Virus record (IMG/VR): IMGVR_UViG_3300047496_000106
Coordinates: 1 to 62,614 of that record
Origin: a virus
Reading direction: 5' to 3' (one strand)
Length of the DNA stretch: 62,614 nt
The position numbers and the translations under genes are program-made. Positions 42,151 to 46,987 of the stretch are shown one piece after another (within the stretch, counting starts at the first letter, position 1; each line of letters starts with the position of its first letter). Below the pieces are notes generated by a model, which had not been told where the DNA came from, did not search any database, and was given only the letters and a program-made list of their open reading frames with translations.

Positions 42151-42698
42151 TTCATCTCCTCTGTGTAGGCGTCGAAATTCTCCGTGATATCTTCCTTGAC
42201 TTCGTCCTCCGTATCATGGGTCTTGGTGAAAACCTTAGCCCCTCCCGCGCCTGAGATGATCCCGCCGTATCCAGGACCACGTTTGCTCCGAAACACAGTG
42301 CAGGAGTAGCCCTTGATCTTGGCCGTCGGGTTGCCGTTCTGCGACTTTTTCCACTCGACAGACCGATGCGCGCCGGCCACGCGAACTTGCGACGGCTTTT
42401 CGGGCTCCGTCTCGAACGCGAAACCGCCCAATCCTTTCGGCGACGCGACATAGTAGTGCGTCGCGTCTCGCCACATAAAGCCCAGCTCGACTCCCTTGCC
42501 GAGCACTGGTACCGGGAACACGAGGTAATCGCCCTCGATCTGCCCAGGCCAGCCAACCCGCTGGGCGGCGATCATGGCCTCGCCGAGCTGGGCGACGACC
42601 ACGTCCTCGTTGAACCCAGCGAGCATGTCGCTGAGCCCTGGCATATAGTCCATGCCGTTGTCAGGCATGTCGTCGACGTTGACGCGATACGCGATCAT
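42147..42698 (-). CDS. Hypothetical protein (183 aa)
   Basis: This 183-residue protein has ATG 42698 in an ATGA overlap with the HNH gene. It has a beta-rich middle (LGKGVELGFMWRDATHYYVA) and a basic/Gly region with KIKGYSCTVFRSKRGPGYGG. The C-terminal 30 residues are acidic. I recognise no family. Confidence 0.65.
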   Translation of the reverse strand: MIAYRVNVDDMPDNGMDYMPGLSDMLAGFNEDVVVAQLGEAMIAAQRVGWPGQIEGDYLVFPVPVLGKGVELGFMWRDATHYYVASPKGLGGFAFETEPEKPSQVRVAGAHRSVEWKKSQNGNPTAKIKGYSCTVFRSKRGPGYGGIISGAGGAKVFTKTHDTEDEVKEDITENFDAYTEEMK

Positions 42699-43009
42699 TT
42701 CTTGTCGTGTCCTGGCTTGGTGGCTTCGTGGTTGGCCTTCATGGAGCCGTCCGGATTGCGCGGATAGCTCCGGTTGGCGTGGACGCTCTCGGCGCGATAG
42801 TTCGAGGGCGTGTTCGCCCCGCCCTTGCCGAGCGGCTTCTTGTGGTCCAGGTCTTGCTTGGGCTTGACCAGCCCAAGCTTGAGCGCTTGCCGGCGAGCGC
42901 GGTGCCGGGTGGCGTCGCCGCTGTCGTGGCCCGCGCCAGTCTCGCCCCTGGCCTTGGCGGTCTTTTCTTCTTCCTTGTAGTTCCTGACGTAGCCGGGTGA
43001 GCTAGGCAT
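42695..43009 (-). CDS. Small HNH-type endonuclease-like protein
   Basis: This 104-residue protein has ATG 43009 with AAGGAG upstream. The layout is that of small phage HNH-like proteins: SSPGYVRNYKEEEKTAKARG, RHRARRQALKLGLVKPKQDL, DHKKPLGKGGANTPSNYRAE and HANRSYPRNPDG. The Asp-His pair in DLDHKKPL and the Asn/His residues that follow are the probable catalytic core. It may help packaging or cut host DNA. Confidence 0.65.
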   Translation of the reverse strand: MPSSPGYVRNYKEEEKTAKARGETGAGHDSGDATRHRARRQALKLGLVKPKQDLDHKKPLGKGGANTPSNYRAESVHANRSYPRNPDGSMKANHEATKPGHDKK

Positions 43010-43332: not shown

Positions 43333-43510
43333 CGGGCACCTCCAACTTCACCGGCTTGTAGCCGAGCTTCTTCAACTTCTCGATGTCGTAGGGATCTGTG
43401 AAGGCGTTGTGGTCGCCCTTCAACGTGATCTCTTTCTTGGTGGCGTCGATCTTAATGATCCTGAACTTCTTGCCTGTGCGCTCGTTCAACAGAAACATGG
43501 CTTCGGCCAT
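43316..43510 (-). CDS. Small hypothetical protein (64 aa)
   Basis: This 64-residue protein has ATG 43510 chosen because AGGAG is 8 bases upstream; two further ATG codons directly upstream have poor spacing. The sequence MAEAMFLLNERTGKKFRIIK, then ITLKGDHNAFTDPYDIEKLK and a basic end. It is a probable small beta-rich protein. Function is unknown. Confidence 0.65.
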   Translation of the reverse strand: MAEAMFLLNERTGKKFRIIKIDATKKEITLKGDHNAFTDPYDIEKLKKLGYKPVKLEVPDVAPQ

Positions 43511-43521
43511 CATCATCACTC

Positions 43522-45351
43522 CTAGTGAAACTCGTAACCCTTGAGCTGGCCCCACGATGGGCCGACCTTGCAATCCCAGACCAAGGGGATGGGCGGCGTG
43601 AAGTCCCATGCCCGCTTGTAGGGGAGGTTGTCCAGCCGCTTCTTGATCTCATGCGCCGCGCGATCGACGATGGCGTCGGGCACGTAGAAATAGAGACCGT
43701 CGTGTAGGTCCCAGCCGAGGTGGATGTCGTTCGGAACGCAATAGCCCTTGAGCACCGCCAAGGCCAGATACTTCTGGTCAGCGCCGGTGCCTTGAATGCG
43801 GTAGTTGATCGCGGTCGAGCCCATGCGCCAGCCGTCCCGCGACCAGTTGCCCTCGACCTGGACGCGCCGTCCCGCGAAGGTTTCGACATACTTGGTCTTC
43901 TTTGTCAGCGCGATCTGTCTCTCCCAATAAATGGGGACCCGGCGATAGGTCCTGGGATAGACAGAATGTATCCTCTTGGCTTGGCCCATGGTCATGTCGA
44001 TATTGTACTGCACGCGCGCCACCTGGAGCAGCTTGGGGGCCGACGTGCGGTATTGAAGCGAGTTGTGGACGATGAACCCATTCGCCGAAAATCGCCGACG
44101 TGGGCCGCAATTCACGATGTCGTAGCAAGGAGCTTCAACTGGATCGTTCGCCACCCTTTGCGTTTCTCCTGAACGGCGAGCCACGCTCGGCGCAGAATAT
44201 CTTCGCCAGAAAGCCCGCGCGCCGCATAGCGCATCGTACAAGTCAGCGAGTAAGGACTTTCGACCCAGGTTGAGGTCGGGATCGATGCCCCCCTCCACGA
44301 CACTGTGCTCCCACCACGCTTGTTCAGCAGGTTCACCTTGCGCGTGACCAGCCGCAGGTTGCCCGGCTCGTAGTGCCCCTCGTTGTCTTTTCGATCGATA
44401 TCCAGACCCGCGTAAGTTGGGTGAGGTAGCGTCTTCTTGACGTACTCCACCCCCTCTTTGACCGAGGCAAACCGACACTCGATCCCACGTGCGCCATAGT
44501 TGCGATAGGACCCGTCCCCCGAATTGCCGCAACGCGAAAACCAGTTCGATACCCTCAGTTGCAGGGTTCGATCCACTGGCGTGACATTGACATGGTGTCC
44601 TGCCTCGGCGTGTCGGCGACGAGCCGCGCACGACCTGCATGCCGTTGACTTGCCCATGCGCAAATTCTGGAGCCCGACCAACAACACTGTCCCACACTCG
44701 CATGCACACCTCACGTATTTTTCGCTGTCCCTCCTTTCTAGCTCGGCGGATAATACCGTCCACAATCCGAACCTTTGACCAACATGCGGAGGCAATGCGG
44801 AGACCACGCTTCGCGACTTCTTGGAACTCGACCCAATCATCATCAACTAACACCTTGTGGTCTGGCGTCAGGGTTAGCCCTTGGTGTGTCATCACCGGAA
44901 GTACACCACTGAACACGACGCCATCGTGAGCGACAAACTCAATCCCATCCCACACGAGGTCGTCGTGTCGCACGTCCTGTATGGCGACATGCCCACGGTC
45001 TGTCAAAATGGGAGAAGAATGACTAGCGCACAGGTTCGCCACCTTGCCGTTCTTGCGAAGTGGCTTCGTCCACTTCTCTTCCTTCAAATGCCCCGCGAGC
45101 AACATCTCGTAGGCGACCTCGTCGGGTGTGCCAGCGGTGCAACGCGCGCCCATGTAAGAGTGCGCGTCCTCGCCGGGCTCGCACATTTGCAACATCACGG
45201 GATCGCCGCTCGCGATGGCCATCCAGCGAAACTCTTGGCCCGCCGCGTCGAACTCCATGAGCGTGTAGCCGGGCGGAGGCACGACGCCGTCCCTGAACTC
45301 GGGATCGTTCTTCATTTGATGAAGGGCGAACCCGATGGGAAGATCAGGCAT
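43522..45351 (-). CDS. DNA polymerase family A, C-terminal part, intein-containing
   Basis: This 609-residue precursor carries the palm and fingers. Motif A is LMEFDAAGQEFRW (Asp35). The O-helix motif B is interrupted: LRKNGKVANL, intein (residues 108-430), then SLQYRTSA. Motif C is WDLHDGLYFY. After splicing, the mature protein is 286 residues and would rely on the separate N-terminal half (45520-46623) for the exonuclease and thumb. The start ATG 45351 overlaps the stop of the zinc-ribbon gene by one base. Confidence 0.9.
   Translation of the reverse strand: MPDLPIGFALHQMKNDPEFRDGVVPPPGYTLMEFDAAGQEFRWMAIASGDPVMLQMCEPGEDAHSYMGARCTAGTPDEVAYEMLLAGHLKEEKWTKPLRKNGKVANLCASHSSPILTDRGHVAIQDVRHDDLVWDGIEFVAHDGVVFSGVLPVMTHQGLTLTPDHKVLVDDDWVEFQEVAKRGLRIASACWSKVRIVDGIIRRARKEGQRKIREVCMRVWDSVVGRAPEFAHGQVNGMQVVRGSSPTRRGRTPCQCHASGSNPATEGIELVFALRQFGGRVLSQLWRTWDRVSVCLGQRGGGVRQEDATSPNLRGSGYRSKRQRGALRAGQPAAGHAQGEPAEQAWWEHSVVEGGIDPDLNLGRKSLLADLYDALCGARAFWRRYSAPSVARRSGETQRVANDPVEAPCYDIVNCGPRRRFSANGFIVHNSLQYRTSAPKLLQVARVQYNIDMTMGQAKRIHSVYPRTYRRVPIYWERQIALTKKTKYVETFAGRRVQVEGNWSRDGWRMGSTAINYRIQGTGADQKYLALAVLKGYCVPNDIHLGWDLHDGLYFYVPDAIVDRAAHEIKKRLDNLPYKRAWDFTPPIPLVWDCKVGPSWGQLKGYEFH
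44062..45030 (-). mobile_element. Intein in DNA polymerase O-helix
   Basis: This 323-residue intein starts Cys (CASHSSPILTDRGHVAIQDV) and ends GFIVHN before Ser. Block B is TLTPDHKVLV; block F-like sequence is CYDIVNCGPRRRFSANGFIV. With Cys1 and His-Asn end it is a standard class 1 intein. The middle of this frame (Arg-, Gly- and Ser-rich) reads through a homing endonuclease coded in another frame. The insertion site in motif B, the most conserved part of the polymerase, is typical. Confidence 0.92.
44112..44846 (-). CDS. HNH homing endonuclease nested out of frame in the polymerase intein
   Basis: This 244-residue protein lies wholly inside the intein but in the +1 frame. ATG 44846 is preceded by AAGGTG with 7-base spacing. 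The N-terminal domain has PHVGQRFGLWTVLS and a zinc ribbon (RCACECGTVL, NLRMGKSTACRSC), typical of phage HNH endonucleases. The HNH core is SVKEGVEY..., with YRNYGARGIECRF, LDIDRKDNEGHYEPGNLRLV and TRKVNLLNKRG. This matches the phage HNH pattern YGGRGI, DRxDNxGxYxPxN, N-K/R-R. The intein frame stays open through it. Confidence 0.88.
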   Translation of the reverse strand: MMMIGSSSKKSRSVVSALPPHVGQRFGLWTVLSAELERRDSEKYVRCACECGTVLLVGLQNLRMGKSTACRSCAARRRHAEAGHHVNVTPVDRTLQLRVSNWFSRCGNSGDGSYRNYGARGIECRFASVKEGVEYVKKTLPHPTYAGLDIDRKDNEGHYEPGNLRLVTRKVNLLNKRGGSTVSWRGASIPTSTWVESPYSLTCTMRYAARGLSGEDILRRAWLAVQEKRKGWRTIQLKLLATTS

Positions 45352-45527
45352 CAGAACTCGTCCTCGTTAAGAACGCCAGAGAGGCGCGGCTTGGACAAAG
45401 CCTGGGCACACACAACACATACGCCAGGATACTTGTATGTGTGATTGCGTGGTTTCTGTCGCGTCTTGGTCTTGCCGCAACGCTTGCAGACGTAAATCTC
45501 CCGCACAGGCTTGGCGCGCTCAGGCAT
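45351..45527 (-). CDS. Small zinc-ribbon protein between polymerase halves
   Basis: This 58-residue protein has ATG 45527, 8 bases inside the end of the N-terminal polymerase gene, and a stop that overlaps the start of the C-terminal polymerase gene. It has two CxxC pairs (YVCKRCGKT and GVCVVC), a probable zinc ribbon, and an acidic end, LNEDEF. It sits exactly at the split of the polymerase and may be a polymerase accessory subunit or a relic of the event that split it. Confidence 0.65.
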   Translation of the reverse strand: MPERAKPVREIYVCKRCGKTKTRQKPRNHTYKYPGVCVVCAQALSKPRLSGVLNEDEF

Positions 45528-46623
45528 CCTCGCTCTCCACCTCGATCTCAACATCCTTGGGCTTGCGCCCCGCTCGCTGCTTCGAGCTGTAGCTCATGCG
45601 CCCCGAGTAGGTCTTGAACGCGCCGACCAAGGGATGAGAGCAGCCGTCGTCGTTGTAGGCCGACGAGATCAAGGGACCGTCGCAGAACTTGGTTCGGTTG
45701 TTCAGCGCCTCGCGATACGCCCTGATATCCTTGACCCTGGGATCGTGTATGCCCAGTTCGTGCAGCACCGACTTGTCCGTGCTGCGCGTGGTCTTGCCCG
45801 TCTTCTTCGACTTGTTGAGCTTGAGCACGGGCAAGCCCCAATCCTCGAACAGCACCTTGGCCAGCTTGACGGGCGAACGTATGACGACCTCGTCCACGCC
45901 CATCATGCCCAGCTTGGCGCTCATGATCTCGACCGTGTCGTCCAGCTTGGCCTTGAGCGCGTGGACCACGGGGCGGTCGATCAGGAGCCCGCGTAGGTTG
46001 GCCTCGGCCAGCATGGGCAGGCACTCGGCCTCGATCAGCGCCGCCCGCCGCTGACGCTCGTTGAGCGCGTCCCAGAGCGCCCCAGCGATCTGAAGCGTGA
46101 ACGTGCTGTCGCGGACGTTGTAGGCGTGCAGCTTGGCGCGCGCGGCTGGGCTTGGGTCGTGGAAGTTCACGTCTTCCTCGTAGCCGGCGTGCTCGGGCAT
46201 GAACTTGGCGACGGCGGTCTTCAACCCAAACGACTTCTTCGAGCGCGGCATCATGTCGTACTCGGGCTCCACCTCCAGGTGCCGCCACAGAAGCATGCCG
46301 TCCAGCCACTTGCATTGGTAAGCTCGCTTCTCCAGCCCATAAGCCATGAGCACGCTGATATCGAACACCGTGTTCCACCCCACAAGGGTCTTCCTCTCAT
46401 CGAGCGCCTGCTCCAGCATGCGCGACATCATGAGCGCGCTTGGCTCTAGGCCACCTTGGTCGGGGTAGGCCAGCTCGTCGTCGACCAGCTCCGCGTTGAC
46501 CCAAACCAAGGATGTCGCCCAGAAGTCGCCAGCCCGCGCGCGCCAGGGCTGGAGCGCGTGCTCGGGCTTCGTGCCACTTGTTTCGAAATCGAACGCCGTG
46601 TGTCTGAAGATGTCCCACTCCAT
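45520..46623 (-). CDS. DNA polymerase family A, N-terminal part (3'-5' exonuclease and thumb)
   Basis: This 367-residue protein has exonuclease motifs: Exo I AFDFETSG (Asp12, Glu14), Exo II VGWNTVFDIS, Exo III AYNVRDSTF. A thumb-like helical region follows, then the conserved TYSGRMSYSSKQ that normally leads into the palm. It ends there, in a Lys/Glu-rich tail. In typical family A polymerases the next segment carries motif A; here that is in the separate downstream gene. An operator-like repeat overlaps its ribosome-binding region. Confidence 0.88.
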   Translation of the reverse strand: MEWDIFRHTAFDFETSGTKPEHALQPWRARAGDFWATSLVWVNAELVDDELAYPDQGGLEPSALMMSRMLEQALDERKTLVGWNTVFDISVLMAYGLEKRAYQCKWLDGMLLWRHLEVEPEYDMMPRSKKSFGLKTAVAKFMPEHAGYEEDVNFHDPSPAARAKLHAYNVRDSTFTLQIAGALWDALNERQRRAALIEAECLPMLAEANLRGLLIDRPVVHALKAKLDDTVEIMSAKLGMMGVDEVVIRSPVKLAKVLFEDWGLPVLKLNKSKKTGKTTRSTDKSVLHELGIHDPRVKDIRAYREALNNRTKFCDGPLISSAYNDDGCSHPLVGAFKTYSGRMSYSSKQRAGRKPKDVEIEVESEDA

Positions 46624-46627
46624 TATC

Positions 46628-46644
46628 TGTTACCCTTGTTGACA
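46628..46644. promoter_or_regulatory. Operator-like inverted repeat (site 2)
   Basis: On the minus strand TGTCA ACAAGGG TAACA, 5 bases before ATG 46623 of the polymerase N-terminal gene. The AAGGG in the centre is the probable Shine-Dalgarno sequence. One mismatch from TGTTA-N7-TAACA. Confidence 0.65.
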
Positions 46645-46693
46645 GATCATGATCGAACCTGAGTCGCCGAGAGAAACCGCGTACTCAACAGTT

Positions 46694-46987
46694 TCACTTT
46701 GTTCTCCACACCATGATGCCCTTGACCGAGCCCTTGGTCCCTTCCGGGCACGGCTCCCAGGCACTCTTCTTGTTCTTGACAGCCCACAACAGCCGCGTCG
46801 TGAACTCGCGATCCAGCGCCTTGCCTTGGTGCGAGGCGTAGGACATGATGTTATTGCGCTCGCGGTTCTCAATAAAAAATATCTCGCCCACGCCCATGGT
46901 GGCGAACGGGTAAACGCGTGTCTTCCGGCCTGCCTTCCCATGCGACTTCCTAGGGATTGGCACGCCGGAAAATGTTTCCAGTTCCAT
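46694..46987 (-). CDS. Conserved phage protein of replication region (97 aa)
   Basis: This 97-residue protein has ATG 46987 with GAAGGCGG upstream. It contains FSGVPIPRKSHGKAGRKTR, VYPFATMGVGEIFFIENRER, NNIMSYASHQGKALDREFTT and a C-terminal GTKGSVKGIMVWR. The pattern PFATMxVGEIFFI, ...GKALDRxF, ...VKGIxVWR is common in small phage proteins near DNA polymerase genes. Function is unknown. An alternative reading at 46630-46941 is a shadow. Confidence 0.7.
   Translation of the reverse strand: MELETFSGVPIPRKSHGKAGRKTRVYPFATMGVGEIFFIENRERNNIMSYASHQGKALDREFTTRLLWAVKNKKSAWEPCPEGTKGSVKGIMVWRTK

Follow-up and report, generated by a model that had tools for sequence, protein, structure and literature searches.

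How can a single stretch of a viral DNA polymerase gene hold a complete intein and, in another reading frame, a complete homing endonuclease gene? The question is raised by virus record IMGVR_UViG_3300047496_000106, whose full 62,614 nucleotides (62.6 kb) are hereafter called the window. Its minus strand encodes a family-A DNA polymerase that is interrupted by an intein, and the frame one base ahead of the intein (the +1 frame) encodes an HNH endonuclease. We consider it very probable that the element is a mobile intein whose homing endonuclease gene is nested out of frame and is made as a free protein, not as an intein domain. The layout is widespread and is not special to this contig. The features of the locus, listed with the evidence for each, are as follows.

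45031 to 45351, minus strand: N-extein, the start of the polymerase C-terminal open reading frame (ORF), ending ...NGKVANL (ORF list; Pfam DNA_pol_A; alignment with the intein-less polymerases L190 and L191)
44062 to 45030, minus strand: intein of 323 amino acids, Cys1 to His-Asn, frame open end to end (motifs CASHSS..TDRG, TPDH, YDIVNCGPRRRF and IVHN/S; AlphaFold; Foldseek)
44791 to 45030, minus strand: N-terminal splicing domain of the intein, blocks A and B (alignment of 28 inteins; confident model of residues 1-80)
44853 to 44858, minus strand: putative Shine-Dalgarno sequence AAGGTG before ATG 44843/44840, inside the K-V codons of the intein motif TPDHKV (sequence; duplex energy -6.5 kcal/mol)
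44112 to 44843, minus strand: HNH endonuclease gene, +1 relative to the intein, 243 amino acids, likely start ATG 44843, stop TGA 44114-44112; zinc ribbon, then HNH core DIDRKDNEGHYEPGNLR (PHROG; AlphaFold; BFVD; alignment)
44117 to 44790, minus strand: dual-coding stretch, Arg/Gly-rich filler in the intein frame and endonuclease in +1 (stop-avoidance and selection tests; mostly disordered in the intein model)
44062 to 44133, minus strand: C-terminal splicing motifs of the intein, blocks F and G (codon display)
43522 to 44061, minus strand: C-extein of the polymerase, SLQYRTSAPKL... (Pfam DNA_pol_A match, residues 448-602)

The ORF at 45351-43522 on the minus strand (609 amino acids) is open straight across the intein and represents the C-terminal part of the polymerase, because the polymerase is spread over two ORFs. 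A sequence-only reading of the window had claimed a complete, open intein with a filler centre and a full zinc-ribbon HNH endonuclease in the +1 frame, and all of this holds. The intein runs uninterrupted for 323 amino acids (45030-44062). It begins with a nucleophile (Cys1 at 45030), carries TPDH as the TxxH motif of block B, and ends with His-Asn (Asn323, ending at 44062) followed by Ser as the +1 residue. With zero stops from Cys1 to Asn323, it is not a split intein, and with the endonuclease in the +1 frame instead of the same frame and polypeptide, it is not a canonical one either. The insertion lies in a conserved enzyme motif for which intein-less alleles exist (L191 here; Javan639 versus Javan255 elsewhere). 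Both L190 and L191 (the L numbers designate related loci) are relatives of the window polymerase that lack the intein, and the window flanks ...NGKVANL and SLQYRTSAPKL meet exactly as in L191 (GKVANLSLQYRT; GKVANL/SLQYRT). The entire ORF of the window polymerase, used as a query against viral contigs, gave no match.

Predicted structures agree with this assignment. An AlphaFold model of the intein, built on an alignment of 37 relatives, has a predicted local distance difference test (pLDDT) score of about 95 at residues 1-80 and about 300-323, and of <50 in most of the middle. The top PDB matches found by Foldseek are all inteins (Ssp DnaB, Npu DnaE and gp41-1; probability 1.00). Their E-values reach only 1e-3 to 1e-2 because most of the query is disordered. 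Thus, the ends of the window intein adopt a predicted HINT fold around a filler that is mostly disordered in the model.

The +1 ORF comprises 244 amino acids when counted from its first TTG (44846) to the TGA at 44114-44112. It matches two PHROG families of HNH endonucleases, phrog_374 (E=3e-27) and phrog_3377 (E=4.5e-14), and its zinc ribbon has the form CxC...CxxC. In the alignment of endonucleases, D150, N154, H157, N162 and N174 as well as C48, C50, C69 and C72 are invariant or nearly so. Modeled alone, the protein reaches a mean pLDDT of 91.9, and the BFVD matches of this model are phage or viral HNH endonucleases. The stop codon of the gene falls within the YDIV-N codons of intein block F.

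Relatives were sought by one close search and by profile searches, using a profile of the endonuclease and profiles of both intein halves. The close search recovered three loci (L001, L002 and L003) with a layout identical to that of the window, L001 being 73% identical, and a profile search added about 100 loci to this set. Overall, the profile searches placed an HNH gene at +1 in about 115 distinct inteins, at +2 in a few and in frame in none. Their sources are unrelated contigs, isolated phages and bacterial genomes that range from 35 to 67% GC, and the inteins reside in polymerases (at several conserved sites) and helicases. When the census is anchored on the endonuclease, 62 of 71 distinct loci have the +1 relation with a stop-free intein frame, three have the +2 relation and none is in frame. 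The other six have no continuous open intein frame: five have the C half in a third frame, and the sixth is L065. When it is anchored on the intein N domain, the HNH gene is at +1 in 68 rows (four of which are remnants, and one locus is counted twice), at +2 in two and in frame in none; this census also gave nine mini-inteins of 110-150 amino acids without an endonuclease. Isolated phages or prophages with the +1 layout include Streptococcus Javan255 and Gardnerella vB_Gva_AB1, and the +2 layout occurs in EBPR siphovirus 2, Pseudomonas MR14 and Salmonella phage Ent1.

An element of the Ent1 type is present in 165 phage records. In this group (L107, 2265-3161, for Salmonella phage Ent1), the HNH gene lies hidden within the polymerase intein in the +2 frame; among the members are phages of Escherichia coli, for example fEg-Eco19 and fPoEco01. 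Polymerase alone is annotated in most of these records, although LPSE1 has a 247-amino-acid hypothetical protein annotated at the corresponding place.

Strong evidence that the intein frame is kept open comes from a recoding test in which the endonuclease protein was held fixed, its codons were resampled synonymously and stops in the intein frame were counted. Across 65 loci, a mean of 11.7 intein-frame stops is expected per locus and none is observed. For the window the expectation is 7.6, and none of 300 resamples is stop-free; for many genomes of about 35% GC, more than 20 stops are expected. Endonuclease relatives that have no intein served as a control: their alternative frames are closed in all but one of 20 matches. 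An open intein frame due to base composition alone is therefore ruled out by the recoding result, by the loci with 35% GC and by the closed frames of intein-less endonucleases.

The same picture emerges from pairwise selection tests over the overlap, from which L083 was left out because a stop in its endonuclease shifted the alignment and made its pairs invalid. For the six closest pairs, omega is 0.10 in the endonuclease frame and 0.91 in the intein frame, and 8.5 stop-creating changes are expected where none is seen. Nine pairs that include divergent ones give 0.22 and 1.16, respectively. The endonuclease frame in the overlap is under purifying selection (omega about 0.1-0.2), and the open intein frame is kept by selection. 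Since the endonuclease is constrained, the intein frame is nearly neutral and stops are avoided, the middle of the intein frame is a neutral by-product that is held stop-free. This answers the proposal that codon constraint be compared in both frames. In the window both frames are intact, and the layout is neither chance nor sequencing error.

Internal initiation appears to be the likely route to the endonuclease, because most relatives have a Shine-Dalgarno sequence and an ATG written within the intein codons KEVITY/D. When the intein motif K-E-V-I-T-Y-D/E-G is encoded, for example, by AAG GAG GTA ATC ACC TAT GAC (AAGGAGGTAATCACCTATG, K-E-V-I-T-Y-(D)), the +1 reading offers a Shine-Dalgarno sequence and then an ATG. 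Among the 115 distinct +1 loci, 110 have an ATG in the open endonuclease frame ahead of the core, 69 have a duplex energy of -8 or stronger, and in 67 the best start is an ATG that always falls at the same intein codon. This fixed-codon ATG is missing in the window; in L001 it is present and is then followed by a +1-frame stop. For the window, ATG 44843 or 44840, both preceded by AAGGTG, is a likelier start than the TTG at 44846 that had been proposed from the letters alone. This TTG pairs slightly worse with AAGGTG and is still a possible start. The proposed ribosome-binding site is thus present, but its strength is moderate only. GTG 44807 aligns with the ATG of L001 but was rejected for its weak Shine-Dalgarno sequence (-1.6). 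The claim that the endonuclease is a free protein fares better: it is strongly indicated by the Shine-Dalgarno sequence and ATG in most relatives, by the gene's own stop and by the selection on its frame, yet we infer it.

Several points somewhat dampen our confidence. Splicing, translation of the +1 frame and cleavage are all steps that we infer. The moderate duplex energy of the window Shine-Dalgarno sequence (-6.5 kcal/mol) goes together with an ambiguous start position. In relatives, the strong Shine-Dalgarno sequence is largely dictated by the amino acids KEV, codon choice skews it only modestly (median P 0.29; 21 of 90 at or below 0.1), and it is kept in mini-inteins too. In addition, Pfam gave no HNH match to the endonuclease, and searches of the PDB by sequence and by fold returned nothing reliable for it.

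Other explanations must be weighed against this background. The frame relation is nearly always +1, and ribosomes could shift in the open +1 stretch before the endonuclease core, in which case programmed +1 frameshifting would yield a fusion of polymerase N part, intein N part and endonuclease instead of a free protein. We judge this improbable. A +1-frame stop lies between Cys1 and the core in 112 of the 115 distinct +1 loci, which narrows the window for a shift, and in many loci a conserved ATG with a Shine-Dalgarno sequence directly follows this stop. Moreover, other loci use +2, and in split loci the endonuclease is a separate ORF. Slightly less probable still is a relic, in which the intein is genuine and splices but this phage has ceased to make the endonuclease. 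Decayed copies are indeed known (L083, L144, L152 and L159), and the strong conserved start is gone from the window. However, the window's endonuclease frame is unbroken and retains the conserved core residues, and the omega of 0.10 noted above comes from close pairs elsewhere.

A group I intron with an endonuclease ORF, the open frame being incidental, is a far less credible account. HNH endonucleases occur in phage introns as well, and in Sodalis phage SO-1 the overlapping gene is labelled a type I self-splicing intron, but the intein motifs, the splicing-domain fold and the absence of stops in 65 loci can be explained without an intron, which would not preserve them. The conserved RNA core of such an intron was not found: Rfam gave no match in the window at gathering level and none at E<=1 across 43400-46700. 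Finally, had one contig stood alone, a sequencing or assembly frameshift might have displaced an ordinary in-frame HNH intein domain, and indels at the two edges had been named at the outset as an error that could undo the interpretation. We give this next to no weight. Independent loci refute it, as the same relation recurs in L001, L002, L003 and about a hundred further loci in unrelated contigs, isolated phages and prophages (Javan255 and vB_Gva_AB1 among them). Compensating errors would be needed at both edges everywhere, and the endonuclease's own stop lies in block F.

The preferred reading, a mobile intein with a nested and separately translated endonuclease gene, suggests how the element might work. 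One transcript would give two products. Translation of the polymerase frame would produce a precursor whose intein N and C blocks fold around the disordered Arg-rich loop, excise the intein and join the polymerase at NL/S. Initiation at an internal start one base ahead would produce the free 243-amino-acid zinc-ribbon HNH endonuclease, ending at its own stop in block F. This protein would cleave polymerase alleles that lack the intein, at the site where the intein inserts, and the intein with its nested gene would be copied in during repair.

Such elements probably originated by the insertion into inteins of entire free-standing HNH genes that brought a start and a stop of their own. Only out-of-frame insertions with an open host frame would survive, because the stop of an in-frame gene would truncate the host protein. 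A tree of the endonucleases, in which many deep branches are weakly supported, requires a minimum of nine changes of architecture label. The second inteins of L069, L070, L078, L147 and L153 form one +1 group that is placed among intein-less endonucleases, and the +2 loci occupy at least two places, which suggests several captures.

Loci at other stages are also found. An exact empty site is present in Javan639, which lacks the intein where Javan255 has one. In L083 the endonuclease holds a stop and the intein is intact, and the mini-inteins L144, L152 and L159 retain endonuclease remnants in the +1 frame. In five loci, successive ORFs, each one frame on, encode first the N half, then the endonuclease and then the C half. 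These fractured polymerase genes are located as follows.

L028, 1124-1906: fractured polymerase gene
L033, 2741-3652: fractured polymerase gene
L069, 12-965: fractured polymerase gene
L078, 1343-2299: fractured polymerase gene
L080, 2732-3694: fractured polymerase gene

With the intein N half, the HNH gene and the C half in three successive frames, the fractured loci are probably natural trans-splicing split inteins. Taken together, the empty sites, decaying copies, remnant mini-inteins and split versions would span the life cycle of a homing element. Shrunken inteins with an HNH remnant readable in +1 were noted at L152/L153 (3001-3543), L180 (3001-3525) and L159 (3001-3372).

On balance, we lean toward a broader view, with less assurance than for the window itself, that this is a major and largely unannotated mobile-intein architecture. 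Its HNH family would always overlap the intein out of frame, with the ribosome-binding site and start written in KEVITY-D/E-G. It would have arisen several times, since a gene with its own stop can live in an intein only out of frame, and would decay to mini-inteins or split inteins. Three kinds of intein are usually distinguished: inteins whose endonuclease is in frame, mini-inteins that have none, and split inteins. A mobile element served by two overlapping genes would be a further, widespread kind. It would show how a splicing element can acquire a free-standing endonuclease without fusion, and would offer one route to mini-inteins and split inteins. Many supposed phage mini-inteins may still be mobile. 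The overlap also provides a natural system for studying overlapping-gene evolution, wherein one frame is strongly selected and the other is neutral except for stops.

Existing annotation largely misses these elements. Pfam and NCBIfam models recognised neither the intein nor the endonuclease. Because the models miss both and most records list only 'DNA polymerase', the endonuclease is mostly unannotated in the one lineage of 165 phage records. In Sodalis phage SO-1 (gp39; L194, 1576-2334), an ORF over the polymerase at the endonuclease position is annotated and carries the intron label mentioned above. The family phrog_26005 (unknown function) matches 37 of 37 inteins scanned, covers the N-terminal splicing domain of the window intein, and probably represents an unrecognised intein family.

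The remainder of the polymerase and one neighbouring gene have features of their own. The N-terminal part of the polymerase is located as follows.

45520 to 46623, minus strand: N-terminal part of the same polymerase, a separate ORF (Pfam and PHROG DNA polymerase matches)

The window polymerase (46623-43522, minus strand) is broken between ...SSKQRAGRKPKD and DLPIGFALHQMK, and a small zinc-ribbon-like gene at about 45526-45351 (minus strand) separates the two ORFs. The start of this gene overlaps the upstream stop, and its stop overlaps the downstream ATG (TGATG). At the same place the polymerase is one unbroken ORF in L001, L190 and L191. Downstream, at 42695-43009 (minus strand), lies a gene for a 104-amino-acid protein of phrog_4590 (unknown function) with an HNH-like LDHKKPLGKGGANTPSN motif; L001 and L002 likewise encode such a protein close to their polymerase.

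The arrangement shares parts with several known systems. Canonical inteins carry an endonuclease of the LAGLIDADG type, such as PI-SceI, or in some cases an HNH endonuclease. Like them, the window element has a splicing domain, an endonuclease located between blocks B and F, and a presumed ability to home into conserved enzyme motifs. Theirs, however, is a domain of the same polypeptide and frame, whereas here it is a separate overlapping gene. Phage group I introns carry HNH endonuclease genes of the I-HmuI / I-TwoI type, and these are alike in that a free HNH endonuclease is translated inside a self-removing element. In the present case removal would occur at the protein level, unlike in introns, and so the endonuclease gene must leave another frame open. 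Fractured genes, in which a free endonuclease gene of a Vsr-like type sits between the halves of a split intein, were reportedly described by Dassa et al. in 2009. The relatives L028, L069, L078, L080 and L033 look to be of that type, but in the window and in almost every relative the intein frame is unbroken, with cis-splicing predicted, and the endonuclease is HNH.

The closest match in the literature searched is not an intein. An out-of-frame zinc-finger HNH gene has been described in the ShiLan domain / Pacc40 insertion of mycobacteriophage DNA methylases (Arsenault, Gosselin, Gogarten 2025; PMC11855218). The ShiLan insert has no intein or intron motifs and is supposed to be retained in the protein, no ribosome-binding site was found, and the disjunct distribution of ShiLan/Pacc40 suggests homing (PMC11855218). 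Thus, the view that the arrangement was undescribed stands for inteins within the literature searched, but not for out-of-frame HNH genes in phage insertions generally. For overlapping frames, PMC11855218 cites a preprint on non-canonical actinobacteriophage inteins, and this preprint (Gosselin et al., 10.1101/2025.01.02.630785), whose title refers to a non-canonical intein architecture, may already describe actinobacteriophage cases. Like ShiLan/Pacc40, the window has an out-of-frame zinc-finger HNH gene in an insertion whose host frame is open. Unlike ShiLan, its host frame is a complete intein by both blocks and fold, and many of the intein loci have a Shine-Dalgarno sequence and an ATG within the intein codons.
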